From the IMG/VR virus record IMGVR_UViG_3300043411_002995, positions 1 to 64,000 of that record: a stretch of 64,000 nt of DNA. One strand, 5' to 3'. This document shows positions 51-56,711 of the stretch, in pieces (position 1 is the stretch's first letter; each line of letters starts with the position of its first letter). Source of the stretch: a virus. The notes below the pieces were generated by a model, which was given only the letters and a program-made list of their open reading frames with translations, did no database searches and was not told the DNA's origin. The position numbers and the translations under genes are program-made.

Positions 51-91
51 CACGCGCCCGCGCGCGTCTTACCCCAGGGAGCCACCTCGAC

Positions 92-100
92 TTATCCACA
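92..100 (+). promoter_or_regulatory. DnaA box (TTATCCACA)
   Basis: Perfect match to the bacterial DnaA-box consensus TTATNCACA. A second identical 9-mer lies at 485-493 in the same orientation. Host DnaA binding is the obvious hypothesis; chance occurrence of two exact copies in one short non-coding region is unlikely. Confidence 0.6.
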
Positions 101-345
101 GGCGTCCGAGGGCCGAATTGATAACGGTTTTCACCGCACTTTCGGTGTAGGTGCCGCAGTGCAGAACCTACGTGTATGACGTGTAATCGACGTAATCCAC
201 CATGCTAAACGAGGTTCATTTGCCTACAGTGGGGGGCACGGTGGTGCGCGCTCATTGCGGTGACTACCTATAACTACATGTCAAGAAATCGACCAAAACC
301 AGTAACCCAACCAACAACTGGGAGTGGTTTGGTAGCGGTCAAGTT

Positions 346-446
346 GGAAAGTGACACCCTCGCGAAAGCCATAGTGGTTGGGGGTCTCTCAAGAAAACTT
401 TTGAAAGACCCCCCCTTCTCGGTCCAGCGTGAGGGTGCCACTTTTT
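346..446. repeat. Concentric inverted repeats (cruciform-forming)
   Basis: Two nested inverted repeats share one centre near base 396. The outer arms are AAAGTGACACCCTCGCG (348-364) and CGTGAGGGTGCCACTTT (428-444), one true mismatch plus a G-T pair. The inner arms are GGGGGTCT (380-387) and AGACCCCC (406-413), continued by TCAA/TTGA. The transcript could fold into a stem of about 100 bases, and the DNA could extrude a cruciform. It could serve an origin, bind a dimeric regulator, or act as a terminator. Confidence 0.65.
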
Positions 447-484
447 CGAAAACACGCGTCTATTTCTCTCTCTCTACTCATTAC

Positions 485-493
485 TTATCCACA
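485..493 (+). promoter_or_regulatory. DnaA box (TTATCCACA)
   Basis: Second exact copy of the DnaA-box consensus, embedded in a pyrimidine-rich strand (about 466-540). Together with the copy at 92-100 it brackets the inverted repeats. Confidence 0.6.
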
Positions 494-665
494 TCCTCCT
501 CTCCCCTCCTCCTCCCCTCCATTTCACCTCTGGCCTCCACCAAATAACGCACCGTGTCATCCGCAGAATGTTCCGGCTTCGCCGGAGATCTTGAGCTGGG
601 TTTTCGACACCCTGCTCGAGCGCCGTTGGGCACCCCTCCGTTCAGGGCACAAGCCCGACGAAGCC

Positions 666-1689: not shown

Positions 1690-4600
1690 ATGACGTTCTG
1701 GAAGGACTACGCGTACGTCGACGCGCAGATGGAGCACCAGGTCACCAAGGCGAAGCTGCCGTGGGTGCGGATGCGGGTGGGGGACGTGCAGCGGCGGGTG
1801 GTCGAGAAGTCCTCGGGGACGAACTGCTACGCGACGGTGCAGCGGTTCAAGGACGCGACGAGCCTGCGCGAGCTGCAGCGGCAGAAGGCGAAGCCGCCGG
1901 TGCCGGTGCCGCCGCCGCCCCCGAGCAAGAAGGGCAAGGGCAAGGGCAAGCCGCAGCCCGAGCTCGAGCTCGACCCGGCGGAGCTGGCGGCCGCAGCCGC
2001 GGCGAAGGAGGTGGCGGCCGCGGAGCGCGAGGCGGACGAGCTGCCCGAGCAGCAGCCGCACTACCACGGGCTGTTCTTCGACTTCGACGCGGACCCGGGC
2101 AAGGAGACCGGGCCCGCGCACGGGATGACCTTCGAGGGGGCGACGGAGCTCGCGCTCAACCAGGTCCGCACGCTGGCGGCGTGGTTCCTGCGGAGCTTCC
2201 CGGGGCTCTCGCCCAAGCACGTCCAGGCCTGGTACTCGGGCTCGAAGGGGTTCCACCTGGTGGTGCGCCCCGAGCCGTTCAACATCCGGCCGCACATGCA
2301 CCTGACGTACATCGTCAAGCGCATCGCGCTCGAGCTGAGCCAGAGCCTGGGGCTGACGACGCTCGACCGCACGGTCTACTCGATCCCGCGGATGTGGCGC
2401 ATCCCGAACACGGTCCACCCCAAGACCCGGCGCTACAAGATCGAGCTCACCCACGACGAGCTGATGACGATGAAGCCGGGGGACATCGTCGAGCTCTCGC
2501 AGCACGCGCGGAACCCCGGGGCGGAGGCCCTGCCGGACAGCCACATCTACCCGGAGAGCGACTACAAGGACATCCCGCCGCTGCCGGAGGCGGTGGCCTG
2601 GTACCTCGAGCACTACCAGGCGTACGACGCGTACCGGGACCTGAAGAAGCTGATGCCGCGGCGGCCGATCCAACGGCCGGACGAGGGCGACGCGTTCCCG
2701 GTGTGCGTCCAGGACATCTTGAAGAACGGGCCGAAGGAGGGCGGCCCGAACCGGAACCGGGTGCTGTTGCCGCTGGCCGGGTTCTTCCACGACGCGGGGC
2801 TGAACGCGAAGGAGGCGCAGCGCCAGCTCGACGACTGGACCCGCGAGCACTACCCGAACGACGGGCACACGGCGGAGCGGATCGCGAACGGGCACTCGGT
2901 CATCGACCAGGCGTACCGGGGGCACGTGAAGTTCAGCTGCCGGTTCATCCGGTCGCTGGCCGGCACCGGGGAGAACGGCCGGGTGGCGTGCGTGGGCGAG
3001 GACAAGTGCCCGTGGATCGCGAACCCGACGGACCAGGAGCCGGCGCAGGTGCCGGAGATCCACCTGAGCGAGGCGAGCAAGGGCTGCTACGTCAACACGA
3101 TGATCAAGACGGCGGTGCACGTCGCGGCGATCGCGAAGGCGCCGTTCGAGCTGCCCGTGAAGGGGCGGATCATGTGCACGCCGAACCCGGAGGCGGCGAT
3201 CTGCGAAAACTGCCCGAACAACCTGGCCGGGGGCAAGGGGAAGCTGCAGTTCACGTTCGACGTGGAGGAGCGAGCAGTGCTCGACCTGGTCGACGTCAAC
3301 GACTCGAACCGCAAGGGGACGATCAAGGCGCGGGTCGGGATCCCGAAGGACTGCCACAAGCACAAGATCGAGATCCTCGAGAGCAGCAACGTGGAGGAGC
3401 TGCAGATCATCCCGATGGTCGACTACGCGCACGCCTACGAGGTGTCGATGGCGGCGGACGACGACGACCTCAACAAGAAGTCGGCGAAGCACGTCGTGCG
3501 GCGGGCGTTCTACCTGGGCCACGGCATCGAGGCGAACAAGAAGTACATGGTCGAGTCGATGGTCTTCGGGCACCCGAAGGACCAGCGGATCTGCTTCCTG
3601 TTCGACAAGGCCGACCCGGCGCAGAACGACATCGACCAGTTTCACATGACCGCGGAGCTCAAGGACAAGCTCCGCATCTTCCAGCCGCGGCCAGGGCAGT
3701 CGGTCTACGACAAGTTCCAGGAGATCCACCGGGACCTGACGGCGAACGTGCACCAGATCGGCGGCCGCTTCGACCTCTCCATCGCGGTCGACCTCTGCTA
3801 CCACGCGGTGATCGGGTTCAAGTTCGCGGGCCAGCCGGTCCACAAGGGGTGGTTCGAGCTGCTGGTGATGGGGGACACGGGCACGGGCAAGACGACGCTG
3901 ATCGAGCGGATGATGCGGCACTACGGGCTCGGGGAGCTCATCGCCGGCGAGGACTCGAAGCGCACGGGCCTGGTCTACGCCAGCATCCAGATGCAGGGGC
4001 AGTGGATCTTGCGGTGGGGGAAGATCCCGCAGAACGACCGGCGGCTGCTGATCATCGACGAGTTCGCGGGCATCCCGGGCGAGGAGGTCGGGAAGATGAC
4101 GCAGCTGCGGTCGAGCGGTCGAGCGGTGGGCGGCGGCGTGAACGCGGACTACGAGACGTGGGCGCGGACGCGGCTCATCCTGATCACGAACCCGCGGAAC
4201 AACCGGGGGCAGATGGCGGGGTTCAACTACGGCATCCAGGCGGTGGAGGACCTGTTCGACGAGGCGCAGGACCTGCGGCGCGTGGACCTGGCGATCATCG
4301 CCGAGAAGGACGAGGTGAAGACGGAGCTGCTCAACAAGCGGTGGGACAAGAGCGATCTGCCGCACGTCTACACGGCGGACCTGTGCCGCAGCATGGTGCT
4401 GTGGGCGTGGAGCCGCGAGCCGCACCACATCGAGTGGCAGGGGGGCGCGGAGGACGCGCTCCTGCGGTGGGCAGACCGGATGGGAGACACGTACGAGTGC
4501 GACGTGCCGCTGGCGGAGCGGGCGGACCTGCGGTTGAAGCTGGCGCGCATCAGCGCGGCGGTGGCGGCGCGGCTGTTCTCGACGGACGCGACGGCCAAGA

Positions 4601-5121
4601 AGGTGATCATCACGACCGACCACGTCGACTTCGCGGCCCAGTTCATGGACCGGAGCTACCGCAAGAAGTCGATGGCGTACTTCGAGTACGCGCGGAAGTA
4701 CAAGCAGGACAACCACTACAGCGAGGAGAAGAAGGTCGACATCAAGAAGACGATGCTCGGGTTCGGGGACGAGAGCGAGTCGATCATCGCGACGATGCTC
4801 GACGTCGACCTCCTCTCGAAGCCGATGTTCGCGGACATGGTGAACCTGGACCAGGACGACCTGCGGCGGCTGTGGAAGTACCTGGTGGGCGAGCGGCTGC
4901 TGCGCAAGACGGCGCGCGGGTACCGCAAGACGCCGGCGTTCACGAAGTTCCTCAAGGGGATGGGCGGGGGCAAGAGCGGGTACTCGGGCGAGCTGCCCGA
5001 CGACTTCGAGACGGGCGGGAACTTCGAGGAGCACGCGGCGCGCCCGCCGGCGGACGCGTTCTTCGCAGACGAGGACCTGGACTACCCCCCGGGTGGCGAC
5101 GACGAGCCCCCGCCGTTCTGA
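1690..5121 (+). CDS. Archaeo-eukaryotic primase fused to MCM-like AAA+ helicase
   Basis: Likely replicative primase-helicase, 1143 aa. Residues about 120-260 carry the three AEP (PriS-type) motifs: FDFDAD (D131, D133), SGSKGFH (183-189) and a later Asp (D226) before a basic block. Residues about 420-520 hold a scattered Cys set that may bind metal. The AAA+ core follows, with Walker A GDTGTGKTT (729-736), Walker B LLIIDEF (786-792) and sensor 1 around N834; the order and spacing resemble MCM rather than DnaB. The tail has a probable winged helix. Residues 60-115 are a charged Pro/Lys/Ala linker. Primase-MCM fusions are known from some phages and prophages. Followed at once by AGGAGG and the next gene. 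Confidence 0.85.
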   Translation: MTFWKDYAYVDAQMEHQVTKAKLPWVRMRVGDVQRRVVEKSSGTNCYATVQRFKDATSLRELQRQKAKPPVPVPPPPPSKKGKGKGKPQPELELDPAELAAAAAAKEVAAAEREADELPEQQPHYHGLFFDFDADPGKETGPAHGMTFEGATELALNQVRTLAAWFLRSFPGLSPKHVQAWYSGSKGFHLVVRPEPFNIRPHMHLTYIVKRIALELSQSLGLTTLDRTVYSIPRMWRIPNTVHPKTRRYKIELTHDELMTMKPGDIVELSQHARNPGAEALPDSHIYPESDYKDIPPLPEAVAWYLEHYQAYDAYRDLKKLMPRRPIQRPDEGDAFPVCVQDILKNGPKEGGPNRNRVLLPLAGFFHDAGLNAKEAQRQLDDWTREHYPNDGHTAERIANGHSVIDQAYRGHVKFSCRFIRSLAGTGENGRVACVGEDKCPWIANPTDQEPAQVPEIHLSEASKGCYVNTMIKTAVHVAAIAKAPFELPVKGRIMCTPNPEAAICENCPNNLAGGKGKLQFTFDVEERAVLDLVDVNDSNRKGTIKARVGIPKDCHKHKIEILESSNVEELQIIPMVDYAHAYEVSMAADDDDLNKKSAKHVVRRAFYLGHGIEANKKYMVESMVFGHPKDQRICFLFDKADPAQNDIDQFHMTAELKDKLRIFQPRPGQSVYDKFQEIHRDLTANVHQIGGRFDLSIAVDLCYHAVIGFKFAGQPVHKGWFELLVMGDTGTGKTTLIERMMRHYGLGELIAGEDSKRTGLVYASIQMQGQWILRWGKIPQNDRRLLIIDEFAGIPGEEVGKMTQLRSSGRAVGGGVNADYETWARTRLILITNPRNNRGQMAGFNYGIQAVEDLFDEAQDLRRVDLAIIAEKDEVKTELLNKRWDKSDLPHVYTADLCRSMVLWAWSREPHHIEWQGGAEDALLRWADRMGDTYECDVPLAERADLRLKLARISAAVAARLFSTDATAKKVIITTDHVDFAAQFMDRSYRKKSMAYFEYARKYKQDNHYSEEKKVDIKKTMLGFGDESESIIATMLDVDLLSKPMFADMVNLDQDDLRRLWKYLVGERLLRKTARGYRKTPAFTKFLKGMGGGKSGYSGELPDDFETGGNFEEHAARPPADAFFADEDLDYPPGGDDEPPPF

Positions 5122-6846: not shown

Positions 6847-7061
6847 CCCACCAGCAGCGGGCAGTGCTCTACCTGGGGCGTGAGCTGCTGCGTCGGTATC
6901 GTGAGTGCCAGGCGACGGTCAACGCGCGCCGGGAGCAAGATCTGCACTGGCAGGCTCGGCAGCTCTACCACCTGTACTGCGCGATGGTCCGGATGTTCTG
7001 GGCGCGCGACCCGCGCTACGACCCGTTCTGGCGCGGAGGAGAACGATCTTGCGACATGTGA
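6843..7061 (+). CDS. Small basic protein, unknown function
   Basis: A 72-aa, Arg- and Tyr-rich, largely helical protein (LYLGRELLRRYRECQ). Starts in an ATGA overlap with the previous gene. It is the last gene before a 94-base gap preceding the Rad50-like ATPase. Confidence 0.55.
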   Translation: MTHQQRAVLYLGRELLRRYRECQATVNARREQDLHWQARQLYHLYCAMVRMFWARDPRYDPFWRGGERSCDM

Positions 7062-7155
7062 ACAAGGAGGACTGACAGATCCACAAGCTGTACGACGCCT
7101 ACATCCGAGTCCGCCCCGGCGGCATCCTCGGCCAACCCTGAGAGACCAAGCGACC
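7062..7155 (+). other. Spacer with strong Shine-Dalgarno but no ATG
   Basis: AGGAGG (7065-7070) is followed eight bases later by ATC, from which an open frame of 20 sense codons runs to TGA at 7139-7141 (IHKLYDAYIRVRPGG...). The composition looks coding. It could be a leader peptide using a rare ATC start, a decayed gene that lost its ATG, or chance. A CTG at 7072 is in frame with the ATPase downstream. Confidence 0.3.
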
Positions 7156-8532
7156 ATGAAGAACGAGAAGCTCGAGATCACTGCTGTGGACGTCCGCGGC
7201 TTCAAGCGGATCAAGCACGTCCACATCGAGACCGAGGACCACCGCAACATCCTGCTCATCGCGGGCAAGAACCGGCAGGGCAAGAGCTCGCTGATGGACG
7301 CGCTCGACGCGGCCTTCTGCGGGGGCGAGGCGTTGCCCACGGAGCCGATCCGCAAGGGCGACGAGGCGACGACCATCGACGTCGAGCTCAACGACGGGCT
7401 CTACAAGATCAAGCGCACCTTCAAGGTGGGCAAGGAGGGCAAGAGCGAGGGCAAGCTGCTGACGGGGCTGGTGGTGACGGGGCCGGACGGCAAGCTGAGC
7501 TCGCCGCAGACGTGGCTGGACAACCTGGTGGCGCAGCGGTTCCTGGACCCGCTGGCGTTCCTGGGCCGGACGCCCGCCGAGCAGCGGAAGATCTTGCTCG
7601 GCATCGTGGGCGTGGACATCGACAAGCTGCAGGCCGAGTCGCGGGCGTTCTACGAGAGCCGGACGGAGGCGAACCGGGCCCTCAAGCAGGCGGTGGCGCA
7701 GCGCGAGGGGCTGGTCGATCCGGGGTCGGCGCCGGCGGGGACGCGGTCGGCGTCGGCCATCCAGGACGAGCTCGACCAGGTCGAGGAGGACCTGCGGGCG
7801 GGCGAGCTGGCGGCGGCCAAGGCAGCGAAGTGCACGGAGACCATGAACGCGCTCCGGGTCGAGGCCAAGAACAAGGAGGAGGAGATCGAGGCGATCAAGG
7901 GGAAGCTGGCGCGGGCCCAGGCCGACCTGGTGAAGATCGAGGAGCGCCTGGCGAAGGGCCAGGAGGTGACGCTCGAGGCGCAGGCGGCGGCGCCGACGGC
8001 GGACAAGGTGGAGGCGCTGGCGGTGCGTCGGCGGACGCTCAAGGGCGAGATGCGGGGGGTGGAGGAGTTCGTGCGGTGGGAGAGCCGGGTGCAGGAGCAC
8101 CAGAAGCAGGTGGCGCAGCTCGACGCCAAGGTGGCGTCGCACCAGGCGCGGGTGGCCGAGCTGACCACGCGGATGGGAGAGATCGACGAGCGCAAGGCGC
8201 AGATCCTGACGCAGGCGCGGATGCCGGTGGAGGGGCTCGAGGTGGTGGAGGACGGGCTGCGGCTGGGCGGGGTGCCGCTCGAGCAGGCGAGCCAGGCGGA
8301 GCAGCTGCGGTGTTCGCTGGCGATCGCGATCGCGCAGTCGCCGCGGCTGCGGGACGTGTGGGCCAAGAGCGGGTCGCTGCTCGATGAGGAGGGGCTGGAG
8401 ACGCTGCGCCAGGTGGCGGCGGACCTGGACTGCCGGCTGTGGCTGGAGATGGTGAACGAGCGGCCCGGGGACACGCGGGCGGTGATCATCCGGGACGGGC
8501 AGGCGGTGGGGCAAGAAGCCCCCGGGACGTGA
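7156..8532 (+). CDS. Rad50/SbcC-like P-loop ATPase
   Basis: SMC-like ATPase of 458 aa, probably acting on DNA ends in recombination or repair. Walker A GKNRQGKSS lies at 37-45 near the N-terminus. A long Glu/Lys/Ala coiled coil spans about 150-390, and the ABC-type signature region SQAEQLRCSLAIAIA is followed by a Walker B-like segment and LDEEGLETL. The arrangement (split ATPase halves around a coiled coil) matches the Rad50/RecF/RecN family. It is much shorter than bacterial SbcC and has no CxxC zinc hook at the coil tip. No SbcD-like nuclease is adjacent. ATG 7156 is used. Confidence 0.8.
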   Translation: MKNEKLEITAVDVRGFKRIKHVHIETEDHRNILLIAGKNRQGKSSLMDALDAAFCGGEALPTEPIRKGDEATTIDVELNDGLYKIKRTFKVGKEGKSEGKLLTGLVVTGPDGKLSSPQTWLDNLVAQRFLDPLAFLGRTPAEQRKILLGIVGVDIDKLQAESRAFYESRTEANRALKQAVAQREGLVDPGSAPAGTRSASAIQDELDQVEEDLRAGELAAAKAAKCTETMNALRVEAKNKEEEIEAIKGKLARAQADLVKIEERLAKGQEVTLEAQAAAPTADKVEALAVRRRTLKGEMRGVEEFVRWESRVQEHQKQVAQLDAKVASHQARVAELTTRMGEIDERKAQILTQARMPVEGLEVVEDGLRLGGVPLEQASQAEQLRCSLAIAIAQSPRLRDVWAKSGSLLDEEGLETLRQVAADLDCRLWLEMVNERPGDTRAVIIRDGQAVGQEAPGT

Positions 8533-8552: not shown

Positions 8553-8876
8553 ATGGGAAGCAAGCACAACCCGCCCCGCTGGTGGAAGGACTACGAGGAG
8601 GAGTGCCGCGTCTACATCTTCCTGTCGAGCGCCTACGCGCGGCAGGTGTGGTCGGGGCAGGTGGTGTTCAACGCGGCCGCCGCGGCGAAGTTGCGGTTCA
8701 TGCCGATCGCCGACCCGCCGCCGGTGCTCACGGAGCAGGAGAAGATCGACCAGGACGTCATCCTTCTGGGTGTGGGGTTCGGCATGTTGCAGGACGACGG
8801 CACCATCAAGCACATGCCCGCCACCAAGATGCGCGTCTACCCCCGGGATCTCATCACGCTCAAGGTGAAGATCTGA
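8553..8876 (+). CDS. Small phage protein, unknown function
   Basis: A 107-aa protein starting MGSKHNPPRWWKDY, with good Shine-Dalgarno AAGGAGG eight bases before ATG 8553. Its middle is Ala-rich and its C-terminus ends in a basic strand-like LITLKVKI. The stop overlaps the next start (TGATG). Not recognised. Confidence 0.65.
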   Translation: MGSKHNPPRWWKDYEEECRVYIFLSSAYARQVWSGQVVFNAAAAAKLRFMPIADPPPVLTEQEKIDQDVILLGVGFGMLQDDGTIKHMPATKMRVYPRDLITLKVKI

Positions 8877-9688
8877 TGCTGACCAAGACGATCACCTACT
8901 GCGGGCAGCGGGTCACGGTCGCCTGCGACGGTCAGTGCCACAAGGCGTGGGGCATCAACAGGCGGCCGAGCTACCAGCTGACCGACCACGAAGACGACTA
9001 CGCCTACCCGGCGGACTACGAGCTCGGCTTCGCGCCGGCGGACCCGGGCACCACGGAGGGCGACCAGGCCAAGCCCTGCGCGACGGTGGCGACCGACCCG
9101 GCCATCATGAACAAGTGGTGCGTGCGCGAGTGCGAGCGCTGCTCGATGCACGACCAGGGCGAGCCGGTGACGCTGCGCACGTTCGACAAGCGCCGCTACA
9201 ACATCCCGCGTCGGACTGGGCGCAACCCGGTGCTGATCATCTCGGGCGGGCAGACCGGCGTCGACCGGGCCGCGCTCGACGTCGGGCTCGCGCTGCGCAT
9301 CGGCATCGGCGGCTACGTGCCCAAGGGGCGCCGGGCCGAGGATGGGCCGATCGCCCCCAAGTACCCCCTCAAGGAGCTCGAGACGACCAACTACCTCACG
9401 CGGACCGAGAAAAACATCGACCTGGCCGGGGCCACGGTCATCCTGTCGACGCGCTGGCCGCTGACCGGCGGCACGCTCGCGACCCGGCGCTACGCCGAGC
9501 GGCCGATCGCCGAGGGTGGCAAGGGTCTCGACACGGTCTTCGTCTGCAACCCGGCGGCGACCGACCCGATCGAGCTGGCCCGGTTCGTCGAGCGCTACCC
9601 CATCGTCAACATCGCCGGCCCGCGCGAGAGCAAGTGCCCCGGCATCTACCAGGTCACCAAGACCTTCCTCTTGGAGGTGTTCCGATGA
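8876..9688 (+). CDS. Cys-rich domain fused to MoCo-carrier-like SLOG domain
   Basis: A 270-aa protein in two parts. Residues 1-105 contain CGQ, CDGQC, CVRECERC and a His. This probable metal-binding domain has no assigned family. Residues about 115-270 have the SISGGQTGVDRAALD-type loop (IISGGQTGVDRAALD) and a later TRWPLTGGT segment, typical of the putative molybdenum-carrier family, a branch of the SLOG/Rossmann superfamily that binds nucleotides. The usual context of such domains is nucleotide or cofactor binding; the substrate here is unknown. Confidence 0.7.
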   Translation: MLTKTITYCGQRVTVACDGQCHKAWGINRRPSYQLTDHEDDYAYPADYELGFAPADPGTTEGDQAKPCATVATDPAIMNKWCVRECERCSMHDQGEPVTLRTFDKRRYNIPRRTGRNPVLIISGGQTGVDRAALDVGLALRIGIGGYVPKGRRAEDGPIAPKYPLKELETTNYLTRTEKNIDLAGATVILSTRWPLTGGTLATRRYAERPIAEGGKGLDTVFVCNPAATDPIELARFVERYPIVNIAGPRESKCPGIYQVTKTFLLEVFR

Positions 9689-41371: not shown

Positions 41372-41400
41372 GGGCACAAGGGATGAAGAAGGAGGTGTCC

Positions 41401-42831
41401 ATGGCCCAATCCACTGCGCTCGCGACCATCCCGATCCCCAAGCCGGCCGACCCGGCGGCTGTTGAGATGCCGCGCCCCCAGGCCTGGCTGTCCGTGGAGG
41501 CAACGATCCCGCACCGCGCCGTCGAGGTCGTCACCCCCGAAGAGCTGCGGCACGAAGAGCAGGTCCGCAGCAAGGTCGAGTTGCCCGACGAGTTCTTCAA
41601 GCGCGCGCCGATCATCGAGCCGCCGCTGGCACCGGGCATCACCGTGGACCTCGAGACCCTGCTCGGGTTCCTCGCGGCGATCGAGACGATCCTGCCGCCC
41701 GACACGAGCTACCCCATCCTGTCGAGCGCCAAGGTGTGGACCTCCGCCGGGCCCGACGACGAGCCCGAGCTCTACCTCGAGGCCGGCAGCCACGCGGTGT
41801 GGACGATGGTGGCGATCAGCGCCACCGCGCCGGCGCCGCGCGGGTTCAGCGCCATGATGCCGGTGCGGCGGGCGAAGAACGTCCTGCGCGCGCTGCGCGA
41901 CGACTACCCCAAGGTGACGGTCGGGGTGGACGAGCACGGCGTCTGCCTGGGGCCCAGGTCCGTGCCCTTCGGCGGCGCCCAGGAGGACTTCCCGTCGCGC
42001 CCCGTGGTGAACGAGTGGACCGCGCGCGCAGCCATGCCCGCCGCGTACTTCCGAGAGATCTGCGACCGGGTGCTGCTGGCCCGGGTCGACGACTTCTGCG
42101 AGCCGGCGCTGCAGGGCGTGCTGCTGGACTTCGAGCTCGTGGCCTCGGACGGCAAGGAGCGGGTGCTCTGCACCGCGGTCGCCACCGACGGCAAGCGCAT
42201 CCACGTGATGCGGCTGCCGCAGATGATGATCGAGATGCGGACCACCCGGCTCCGCGCCGTGCCCCCGACCTGCACCGTCTCGGCCGGGTTCTTCTGGTAC
42301 ATGCGGGAGGTGATCCAGCACGAGTGGGCCGCCATCGAGTTCAGCGAGGACCAGCTCGCCGCGCGCGGCCAGGACTTCATGGTGATCGCGCGCGCGCCGG
42401 CGGATGCCAGGACGTCGATGGGCGAGCTCGGCAACTGGCGGCGCTTCAACATCGAGGGTGAGGGGTACTGGCTGGTGGCGAGAGCGCCGCTCGAGCAGCT
42501 GGTCGCCCGCGCCACGATCGGGGGGACCTCGAGCCTCTGCCGGATCGCCATCGATGGCGTGCGGCAGACCCTGACCATCTCGTCGACCAACGACCAGGAG
42601 GCCCAGTACAGCGAGACGATCTCTGCACGCAGCGTGGGGGGCGCACCGAAGGTGAACGCCCTCTTCGACCAACGCTTCCTGCGCGACGCCATCACGGCGT
42701 CGTCCGGCGGGCTTGTGCGCTTGACGTTCGCGTCGACGCTCAAGGCCCAGCAGTCCTACCCGGTGGTGATCCGGGGCGAGGACGAGCAGTTCAAGGCCAT
42801 CATCATGCCCGTGACCGAAGGAGAGCCATGA
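41401..42831 (+). CDS. dnaN: DnaN-like DNA sliding clamp
   Basis: A 476-aa homologue of the DNA polymerase III beta clamp, the ring that tethers polymerase to DNA. The tell-tale pieces are CTAVATDGKRIHVMRL in the middle, SSTNDQEAQ later, and the C-terminal PVVIRGEDEQFKAIIMPV, which corresponds to the conserved DnaN end (PVLI...Y.VMPV). It is about 100 residues longer than bacterial DnaN because of an N-terminal extension (residues 1-70). ATG 41401 is preceded by a full AAGGAGGTGT. The unit follows a terminator; no promoter was identified between them. Confidence 0.8.
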   Translation: MAQSTALATIPIPKPADPAAVEMPRPQAWLSVEATIPHRAVEVVTPEELRHEEQVRSKVELPDEFFKRAPIIEPPLAPGITVDLETLLGFLAAIETILPPDTSYPILSSAKVWTSAGPDDEPELYLEAGSHAVWTMVAISATAPAPRGFSAMMPVRRAKNVLRALRDDYPKVTVGVDEHGVCLGPRSVPFGGAQEDFPSRPVVNEWTARAAMPAAYFREICDRVLLARVDDFCEPALQGVLLDFELVASDGKERVLCTAVATDGKRIHVMRLPQMMIEMRTTRLRAVPPTCTVSAGFFWYMREVIQHEWAAIEFSEDQLAARGQDFMVIARAPADARTSMGELGNWRRFNIEGEGYWLVARAPLEQLVARATIGGTSSLCRIAIDGVRQTLTISSTNDQEAQYSETISARSVGGAPKVNALFDQRFLRDAITASSGGLVRLTFASTLKAQQSYPVVIRGEDEQFKAIIMPVTEGEP

Positions 42832-47674: not shown

Positions 47675-48169
47675 ATGAACCGACTGTTCGACGCCAACGC
47701 CAAGGCGCAGAAGGATGCGGGCGCGCGGCGCTCGCGCGAAGAGGTGCGCCAGCGGGCGGAGGCTGTCGACAAGGCGCTCGCCGAGGCCGGCCTCCTCGAC
47801 GATGCCGACAAGCGCCTCCAGGCGAAGCTCTCGCAGTCCGTGCAGCCGATCGTCTACGCGTCGTTCCGCGTGCCCGGCTCGAAGTGGCGGCTCGAGCACG
47901 CGCGCGCCGGCGACGACTACGTCATCCAGCTGTTCCCGCTGAAGCCGCCGCGGCTGGTCTGGCAGGATGTGGTCCTCGCGATCATCGCGACGATGGACAC
48001 GATCTTCCCGCGCAACATCAAGATCACCTACCGCCCACCGCGCGAGGACTACCAGATCAAGTACTACACCATCACGGTGGAGAAGGTGGTCGGGCAACCC
48101 GGATGGGAACGAGCCTGCAAGGAGCGGGCACTACGTGGCCTCGCCGCGATCGACGTCTGGTCGGAGTAG
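47675..48169 (+). CDS. Phage protein, unknown function
   Basis: A 164-aa protein. Residues 1-50 are charged helix (QKDAGARRSREEVRQRAEAV). Residues 60-135 alternate strands with aromatics (PIVYASFRVPGSKWRLEHAR; IKITYRPPREDYQIKYYTI), and the end is helical. It is the first gene of a short unit with a good promoter. Not recognised. Confidence 0.65.
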   Translation: MNRLFDANAKAQKDAGARRSREEVRQRAEAVDKALAEAGLLDDADKRLQAKLSQSVQPIVYASFRVPGSKWRLEHARAGDDYVIQLFPLKPPRLVWQDVVLAIIATMDTIFPRNIKITYRPPREDYQIKYYTITVEKVVGQPGWERACKERALRGLAAIDVWSE

Positions 48170-48230
48170 CCGACCTCGAGGATGGGGGGTCGAGGTCAAG
48201 TCGGGCCGCCGAGCTCGGTGGACCGCGCTG

Positions 48231-48416
48231 GTGCGCCCCGGGACCGAGACGGTCATGTCCACGTCCTTGGCCTGCGCGCGGGCCTGGGCGGCGGACTACG
48301 CGGCCCGCGGCTGCCTGGTGCGGCTGGTGGAGCTGCAGCAGCCCCGTGGTCATCCCTGCCGCCCGCCGGCGACCGCTGACGCAGCGCCGCTGCCGGGCCA
48401 GCTGGTGCTGTTCTAG
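48231..48416 (+). CDS. Small protein, start uncertain
   Basis: A 61-aa protein. The sensible frame continues upstream of GTG 48231 (VEVKSGRRARWTALVRP), but no standard start codon precedes it after 48169, so the true N-terminus is unclear. ATG 48255 is another option. ACARAWAADYAARGCLVRLV is helix-like. Ends tail to tail with the virion operon. Confidence 0.4.
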   Translation: MRPGTETVMSTSLACARAWAADYAARGCLVRLVELQQPRGHPCRPPATADAAPLPGQLVLF

Positions 48417-48712
48417 GGCCGACGGCGGTTGGCCATCCGCCCCAGGGCCTTGAGGAGCACGGCGGCCAGGGCGCCGCCGGCCGCCCCCTTGCCCAGGGCC
48501 CCCAGCGCCGTCCCCTCCGGTCCGTCGTAGGGGTTGCCGGTGGCGAGGGCCTTGGCCTTGGAGGCGCCGTGGAGCACGCCCGAACTCAGGGCGCCGGTCG
48601 CCACCAGGCGCTCGACCAGGCGGTCTGGGCGCGGCGCCAGGAAGCCGGCGGTCTTCCGCAGCGGGCTGACCGCGGTCCGAACGAGCTCGTCGCTGAAGGC
48701 CTGGAGCTTCAT
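48413..48712 (-). CDS. Small protein with F-x-DEL motif, last gene of the virion module
   Basis: A 99-aa protein starting MKLQAFSDELVRTA, with an Ala/Gly/Leu-rich C-terminal half (GALGKGAAGGALAAVLLKAL) that could be a membrane or packing helix. The N-terminal FSDEL matches the F-x-DEL motif of other genes in this cluster. Its stop TAG (48413-48415) overlaps the opposite stop TAG (48414-48416) in the sequence CTAG. Start overlaps the tail-tube stop (ATGA). Confidence 0.6.
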   Translation of the reverse strand: MKLQAFSDELVRTAVSPLRKTAGFLAPRPDRLVERLVATGALSSGVLHGASKAKALATGNPYDGPEGTALGALGKGAAGGALAAVLLKALGRMANRRRP

Positions 48713-49503
48713 CACTGGTTCGCGTAGAGCGGCTGGCCGGCGCCGGCGAGCCGCATGCGGATGGGGCGGATCTGGTCGAACTGCAGCGACACGCCCTCCA
48801 TCAGCAGGACCGAGCCCGAGGAGATCGAGAGCTGGTGGCCCTGGATGTAGCACTCCTCGAGGTAGACGGCGCCCACCGTCATGTCGAGCTGGTTGCGGAA
48901 GTAGATCGCCAGCCCGGTCGGCTGGTTGAAGATGTCCGACGCCAGGTTGAGCCACAGGTCGTCGTAGCCCGGGTTGTACTTCACCCGGTGCAGCTGGGAC
49001 TGCAGGAGGGGCAGGTCCAGCATCGAGGCGTTGGGGTCGGGCACCTCGACGCCGCCGACGTTGATCGTCGCGCCCTTGGGCTTGTGGTTGAACTGGAACG
49101 GCGCGTCCGCCGCCGACTGCTTGTAGTGAGCGTAGAGCGCCTTCATCAGCGACGGCCCGTGGTAGAGCACGCGGCCGAGGGTGACCGAGCCGACGGTCCG
49201 GCCCGGGATGAAGTAGCTGCGGTTCGAGCCGATCTCGAAGATGCGCTGCAGCTGCTTCGACTGCGAGAGGCCGACGTTCTCGAGGACGCCGATCGGGAAG
49301 ACCATGTCCCCTTCGTCGGTGGTGTCGAGATCGCCCTCGGCGCCGGGCGGGCCGCCGGTGATGTCCGTGAGGCGCGGCGGCCCGGCGGCGATGAGCGTCG
49401 TCTCGGCGGAGACGAACTCGCCGCCGAGCAGCTCGGCCTGGACGTGGTGGTTGTGGAAGTCCCAGTTGTTGAAGGACGTGGTGGCTGCGGGGCGAAGGGG
49501 CAT
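48712..49503 (-). CDS. Probable tail tube protein
   Basis: A 263-aa virion protein. The pattern of strands with DRVGSVTLGRVLYHGPSLM-like centre (VGSVTLGRVLYHGPSLMKAL) and a C-terminal LLMEGVSLQFDQIRPIRMRL resembles inner-tube proteins, and the position directly downstream of the sheath gene is the standard place. The identity is inferred from order rather than a decisive motif. ATG 49503 follows AAGGAGAC. Confidence 0.6.
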   Translation of the reverse strand: MPLRPAATTSFNNWDFHNHHVQAELLGGEFVSAETTLIAAGPPRLTDITGGPPGAEGDLDTTDEGDMVFPIGVLENVGLSQSKQLQRIFEIGSNRSYFIPGRTVGSVTLGRVLYHGPSLMKALYAHYKQSAADAPFQFNHKPKGATINVGGVEVPDPNASMLDLPLLQSQLHRVKYNPGYDDLWLNLASDIFNQPTGLAIYFRNQLDMTVGAVYLEECYIQGHQLSISSGSVLLMEGVSLQFDQIRPIRMRLAGAGQPLYANQ

Positions 49504-55814: not shown

Positions 55815-56711
55815 TCAGGTCAGCGTCATCTTGGCCGCGGCGCGCAGGTTGCCGTAGCCCATGCCGACGTACTCCCAGGTCTGCCACGACACCATGTCAC
55901 CGCGCTTCTCGATGTAGAACTTGGTGTCGTTCAGGATGTAGAAGTTGCCGAGGTACTTCGGGTCCGTGAAGATGTACAGGGTGCCGGGCACCACGATCGA
56001 CGACTTGATCGTCACCACCAGCTTGTGGCCGAGGATGGTGTTGTACTTGTAGCCGTTGACCAGGATCTCGCTGGCCAGCGGGGAGCCGATCACGGCGCCC
56101 TCCTGGGTCATGAAGTCGTCCCAGTCGGCCTTGTGCATCAGGATGGTGCCGACGGCGAGCTCGTCGGTGTCCAGCGCCTTGAAGAGCTTGACCAGGTTCT
56201 CGCTGGTCGCCGGGCCGGCGGCCGCGGGGGCGATGGTCTTGCCGTTCGCCGCGATCACCGCGTCGGTGAACTCGATGAACTTGCCGTCCTCGATCTTCTG
56301 GATGTCCTTGACCGAGTTCTCCTCGATGACCTTGGTCACCGGGTAGTCGTAGGCCAGGAGCTCCGCCTCGTTCTTCTTGAACTTGTCGGACTCGATCTTG
56401 AAGAACGGGATCTCGTAGCGGTCGCTCTCGATGTACCGCTCGTGGGTCTTGCCCCGGAAGTTGACCGCGGCCGCCGAGCTCTGCGGCTCGATGTCGACGA
56501 TCTTGACCAGGGTGTCGTGGTTGACCGACCGCTGGCAGTCGGCCTTGGTGAGGTACTCCGGCGGCAGGATGCTGCGCACGAAGCTGACCTCGCGGAGGCG
56601 CTCGCGCACGAAGGCACCGCCGGCCTGGGCGGCCTTCTCGAGGCCGTCCGCCGTGTCCAGGCGCGAGACGAAGAGGTTGTTGAAGGTGGCCGCGTCGATC
56701 TGGGGGTCCAT
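55815..56711 (-). CDS. Major capsid protein
   Basis: A 298-aa shell protein. The C-terminal half shows HKADWDDFMTQ, GYKYNTILGHKLVVTIKS and a final YVGMGYGNLRAAAKMTL, the usual HK97-type capsid ending. An N-terminal helical segment (EKAAQAGGAFVRERLRE) may be an N-arm or removed piece. Position downstream of protease, scaffold-like and decoration-like genes matches. AGGAG lies before ATG 56711. Confidence 0.8.
   Translation of the reverse strand: MDPQIDAATFNNLFVSRLDTADGLEKAAQAGGAFVRERLREVSFVRSILPPEYLTKADCQRSVNHDTLVKIVDIEPQSSAAAVNFRGKTHERYIESDRYEIPFFKIESDKFKKNEAELLAYDYPVTKVIEENSVKDIQKIEDGKFIEFTDAVIAANGKTIAPAAAGPATSENLVKLFKALDTDELAVGTILMHKADWDDFMTQEGAVIGSPLASEILVNGYKYNTILGHKLVVTIKSSIVVPGTLYIFTDPKYLGNFYILNDTKFYIEKRGDMVSWQTWEYVGMGYGNLRAAAKMTLT

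Follow-up and report, generated by a model that had tools for sequence, protein, structure and literature searches.

The window, that is the whole stretch of 64,000 nucleotides analyzed here, covers positions 1 to 64,000 of a virus record that is 111,705 bp long, with 68% GC. The window opens with a long non-coding leader followed by an operon whose fourth ORF encodes a fusion of an archaeo-eukaryotic primase with an MCM-like helicase, hereafter primase-MCM. The record itself begins at position 1, so that the leader may extend further to the left, and 1-665 is its visible part. An alignment-based scan brought up a relative, G001 (IMGVR_UViG_3300020219_000012; 100,342 bp, 63% GC), with which the leader could be compared. 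The features of interest, with the evidence behind each, are as follows:

1-665, no strand: non-coding leader and origin candidate (longest non-coding run, codon log-odds, lowest GC)
92-100, + strand: DnaA box 1, TTATCCACA (exact match; inside TTATCCACAGGC, a 12-mer common to G001)
201-550, no strand: possible unwinding element with the lowest GC of the record (300-bp GC scan of the entire record)
348-444, no strand: nested inverted repeats (repeat search and single-strand fold)
485-493, + strand: DnaA box 2, TTATCCACA (exact match; without counterpart in G001, alignment with L007)
494-520, + strand: pure pyrimidine run of 27 nt, directly 3' of box 2 (run scan)
666-1076, + strand: small 136-aa ORF that opens the operon (codon signal; no PHROG or Pfam match)
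1073-1414, + strand: small ORF of 113 aa (no PHROG or Pfam family; weak codon signal)
1404-1664, + strand: small 86-aa ORF (zinc-ribbon match below threshold)
1690-5121, + strand: primase-MCM, 1143 aa (PHROG, Pfam, motifs, C-terminal model)
41383-42831, + strand: sliding-clamp-like protein, a DNA polymerase processivity factor (phrog_947; PF02768 sub-threshold)

The two exact DnaA boxes that a sequence-only reading of this DNA had pointed out are both present, in the same orientation on the + strand. Examination of the whole 111,705-bp record retrieved TTATNCACA at 92-100 and 485-493 only, while dinucleotide shuffles predict 0.08 copies per 64-kb window and none of 100 shuffles contained two. 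No TTATCCACA with one mismatch occurs elsewhere in the 64-kb window, and TTGTNCACA is found as a single copy in the record, at 7057, within a gene. The two boxes have 11 bases in common (ACTTATCCACA) and lie 393 bp apart; they do not constitute an oriC-like cluster of several DnaA boxes. The leader displays the first feature by which DnaA-dependent origins are recognized, perfect boxes in non-coding DNA, with TTATCCACA at 92 and 485.

A second such feature is an AT-rich stretch adjoining the boxes, and it is found here as well. No frame carries a coding signal from position 1 to about 640-680, as judged by codon log-odds, and this run of 680 bp is the longest non-coding one of the record, the runner-up reaching 270 bp. 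Within it, the segment 201-550 has 50% GC versus 68% for the record (300-bp windows) and represents a putative unwinding element. The AT-richer non-coding stretch described earlier between the boxes lies in this longest non-coding run, which holds the lowest-GC windows of the record. The inverted repeats mentioned in the same description were located at 348-444, with outer arms at 348-364/428-444 (17 nt, 88%) and inner arms at 380-392/401-413 (13 nt, 92%), and the single-stranded DNA of this region folds better than shuffled sequences on the two strands (z = -3.6 and -4.1). Likewise, the pyrimidine-rich strand corresponds to the 27-nt run at 494-520, which is longer than any other uninterrupted pyrimidine or purine run of the record. 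The region contains no iterons of the P1 type, the only repeats besides the box being two-copy ones of about 71%. Searches for terminators, Rfam families and tRNAs returned none.

The primase-MCM protein matches the primase family phrog_16345 (2.9e-29) and the MCM family PF00493 (25.3 bits for a cut-off of 23.3). Its alignment exhibits the primase motifs FFDFDAD, SGSKGFH and TLDR and a Walker A motif, GDTGTGKT. As read from the sequence, primase motifs are thus followed by an MCM-type AAA+ P-loop in one chain, which is the layout of BcMCM, and motifs and PHROGs alike confirm the archaeo-eukaryotic type that had been proposed for the primase. A model of the last 169 residues adopts a winged-helix topology, with pLDDT values of about 87-91 there, and a Foldseek search with it returned mostly winged-helix proteins at weak E-values (>=0.06); a winged helix is accordingly predicted near the C-terminus. 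The leader had been placed directly before the primase-helicase operon, which is right if the ORFs at 666-1076, 1073-1414 and 1404-1664 form part of this operon, but the primase-MCM gene itself starts at 1690.

Elsewhere in the record, the clamp-like protein presumably belongs to the replication machinery. DnaA, PolA, PolB and Pol III alpha were not detected in the record or in G001, both of which are probably incomplete. The lack of a detectable phage DnaA or polymerase next to the presence of a clamp-like protein is consistent with the borrowing of host factors. It is of note that a clamp-like protein is encoded at 41383-42831 although the record has no recognizable DNA polymerase. Among other genes, the window encodes a protein whose YpsA (SLOG) domain is circularly permuted (8582-9688), its gene adjoining that of an SbcC/AAA-like ATPase (6880-8532), and the record has a gene for a sigma-factor-like protein at its right end (L004:14283-15386, record positions 110283-111386).

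The comparative test rests on one informative relative, G001, whose primase-MCM is full length and 50% identical. The two records align collinearly along most of their length, one inverted relative to the other, and their capsid proteins are 94% identical. G001 possesses exactly one TTATNCACA in its entire 100,342 bp. This site precedes the primase gene by 449 bp and borders a gap of about 430 bp where the GC content is the lowest of G001 (35% vs 63%). The longest word common to both leaders, on either strand, is TTATCCACAGGC, which includes the box; any common 12-mer occurs in 3.9% of shuffles. Furthermore, no gene between 5 and 19 kb of the window has a detectable counterpart in G001, hence the box, the AT-rich gap and the primase stay together while their neighbors differ. 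The position of one box is thus kept in one relative. On the other hand, with respect to the primase gene the G001 box has the reverse orientation of those in the window, it overlaps the end of the preceding ORF, and box 2 is absent, the closest sequence being TTATTCTCT, two mismatches away from TTATNCACA. The proposal of a replication origin is therefore strengthened by a relative that keeps a single box and a lowest-GC gap before the primase, but neither the number nor the orientation of the boxes is conserved.

Wider searches extended this picture in several directions. Scans of viral contigs for primase-MCM yielded only G001 plus distant helicases, no relative of the protein was found in 84,980 cellular genomes, and no DNA-level relative of the record among 50,697 phage records. 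Around 80 distant helicase relatives, mostly in other phage backgrounds, show no concentration of perfect boxes upstream of the gene. L164, with a helicase 48% identical, has a primase half of the TOPRIM-like type and lacks an upstream box. In L164:7456-10425 and L006:5083-7986, the same MCM-like helicase is joined to a TOPRIM-like rather than an archaeo-eukaryotic primase half, which suggests an exchange of this half. A further six contigs from the group, found via the capsid protein (about 90-95% identical), gave no primase-MCM by blastp on contig stretches, and are for this reason uninformative on the box.

The phage group is not a single oddity, since it comprises at least eight IMG/VR contigs, two of which cover the leader region. 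Its major head protein (window 55815-56711) is 90-95% identical in at least seven other IMG/VR contigs (L101-L107). The contigs sharing this unusually conserved capsid belong to contractile-tailed phages, and the GC content of the records ranges from about 51% to 68%. A member of the same group, G007 (IMGVR_UViG_3300033148_008025; 121 kb), has no detectable primase-MCM and carries at 1-60000 some 60 kb that extend past the end of the window's record and consist of mostly unrelated genes. Its replication module may differ.

Two additional marks of an origin were considered and set aside. With the DnaA-trio as defined in PMC8287927, a basal unwinding system calls for three or more DnaA-trios no further than 16 bp from a box. 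No trios follow box 1, and box 2 is followed by a loose match, CTCCTCCTC, after a 12-nt spacer (P ~0.09), which is not above chance. Cumulative GC skew, proposed beforehand as a check of the origin, lends it no support: its minimum falls at the record start, from where it rises to the end, and this is trivial because the linear record begins there. In G001, where the region is internal, no inflection is seen at the equivalent place. Given the P value of the trio match and the disagreement of the skew between the two phages, neither is claimed as support. The record has no terminal repeats. As a separate observation, gene direction flips from + to - at about 48.2-48.7 kb (window 48160-48720), and the cumulative AT skew reaches its maximum at 49 kb.

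Altogether, the leader is likely a replication origin, and a functional use of host DnaA at this site is plausible. Our overall explanation, to which we give a probability of about 0.5, is a theta-type origin within 1-665 that host DnaA would bind and that the phage primase-MCM would enter. Host DnaA would bind the TTATCCACA box or boxes at the edge of the region and help to open or remodel the AT-rich DNA. The primase-MCM, made from the downstream operon, would then enter the opened DNA, unwind it and lay primers, and a host DNA polymerase together with the phage clamp would extend them. Phage replication may in this way be coupled to host DnaA, as had been suggested. More tentatively, a hybrid start can be envisaged in which DnaA opens the phage origin and would hand over the DNA to the MCM-like helicase, primase-MCM being loaded there instead of DnaB and DnaG.

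The main rival to this explanation keeps the origin but has it recognized by the winged helix of the primase-MCM or by another phage protein, the boxes being auxiliary or irrelevant. The winged-helix topology of the C-terminal model and the winged-helix matches, at weak E-values, are in line with it, as is the origin-recognition role suggested for the winged-helix domains of related primases (PMC5862659). The inverted repeats could serve as a target, and the distant helicase relatives manage without boxes. Recognition by a phage protein does not account, however, for the fact that two divergent records have their only perfect boxes at this place, and we regard it as rather unlikely. It seems rather less probable that the leader is regulatory, with host DnaA controlling transcription of the early replication operon while the true origin lies elsewhere. 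Box 2 is indeed 173 bp upstream of the first ORF of the operon, and lambda offers an example of transcriptional regulation by DnaA in its origin region (PMC3985674). Yet a crude scan found no sigma-70-like promoter in the region, a model that may not fit the host, and the long AT-rich non-coding layout exceeds the needs of a promoter.

The boxes might finally be a coincidence in AT-rich intergenic DNA, with no function related to DnaA. Stray boxes do occur, since three records of the same group (G007, G008 and G012) each carry a single TTATNCACA in structural regions, where it has no visible role. Local shuffles predict, however, 0.009 boxes in the 461-bp region and 0.013 in that of G001, and none of 4000 shuffles had two boxes here. 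Arithmetic on lengths, made post hoc, gives a probability of the order of 1e-7 for the random placement of both boxes here and of one there. Chance is therefore the explanation that we find hardest to credit.

If the theta-type origin opened by host DnaA and entered by the primase-MCM proves true, a bacterial DnaA would open DNA for a helicase of the MCM family. Such a DnaA-MCM partnership would join initiation systems normally confined to separate domains of life and would provide a compact test bed for the loading of an MCM-like ring without the ORC/Cdc6 machinery. Furthermore, the replication of these phages would be tied to the initiation state of the host.

Within the open-access papers searched, no description was found of a DnaA-box origin combined with a primase-MCM, each ingredient being known on its own. 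Among the closest known systems is BcMCM, the primase-MCM protein of a Bacillus cereus prophage (PMC4538821, PMC5862659): like the protein of the window, it is a single protein with an archaeo-eukaryotic primase followed by an MCM-type helicase, from a phage element of a bacterium. The portions of these papers considered here describe the enzyme and not an origin or DnaA boxes, and the likeness is drawn from that description. The primase of Bacillus phage vB_BboS-125 (MH884509) has the same overall layout and is 31% identical over 81% of the query. Unlike the window, this phage lacks a perfect DnaA box within the 14.8 kb surrounding its primase gene, and its genome is unrelated, small (58.5 kb) and equipped with a DNA polymerase I of its own.

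As for the origin, P1 and other iteron plasmids use host DnaA and likewise have an extrachromosomal origin in which DnaA boxes adjoin an AT-rich unwinding region (PMC4980987), and at P1 one DnaA box is said to suffice, according to the title of a reference in that paper. P1 differs by its RepA iterons, of which none were found in the region of the window, and its type of origin loads host DnaB, whereas the phage of the window has an MCM-like helicase. In lambda too, host DnaA influences phage replication, being bound at two box-like sites near the origin (PMC3985674). These sites act at a promoter and merely resemble the consensus, while the boxes of the window are perfect, and lambda relies on O, P and host DnaB in place of a primase-MCM. 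In Pseudomonas phage vB_PseuGesM_254, judging from part of its description (PMC11512268), the origin of a lytic phage was likewise predicted on the basis of an AT-rich region containing DnaA boxes, in that case by software and with no comparative test described in that part, and the phage encodes a DNA polymerase A, a family not detected in the window's record. To call the arrangement an odd mix, as was done at the outset, is hence fair for the combination, but phages and phage plasmids with DnaA boxes (lambda, P1) and phages and prophages with a primase-MCM (BcMCM) were each already known.
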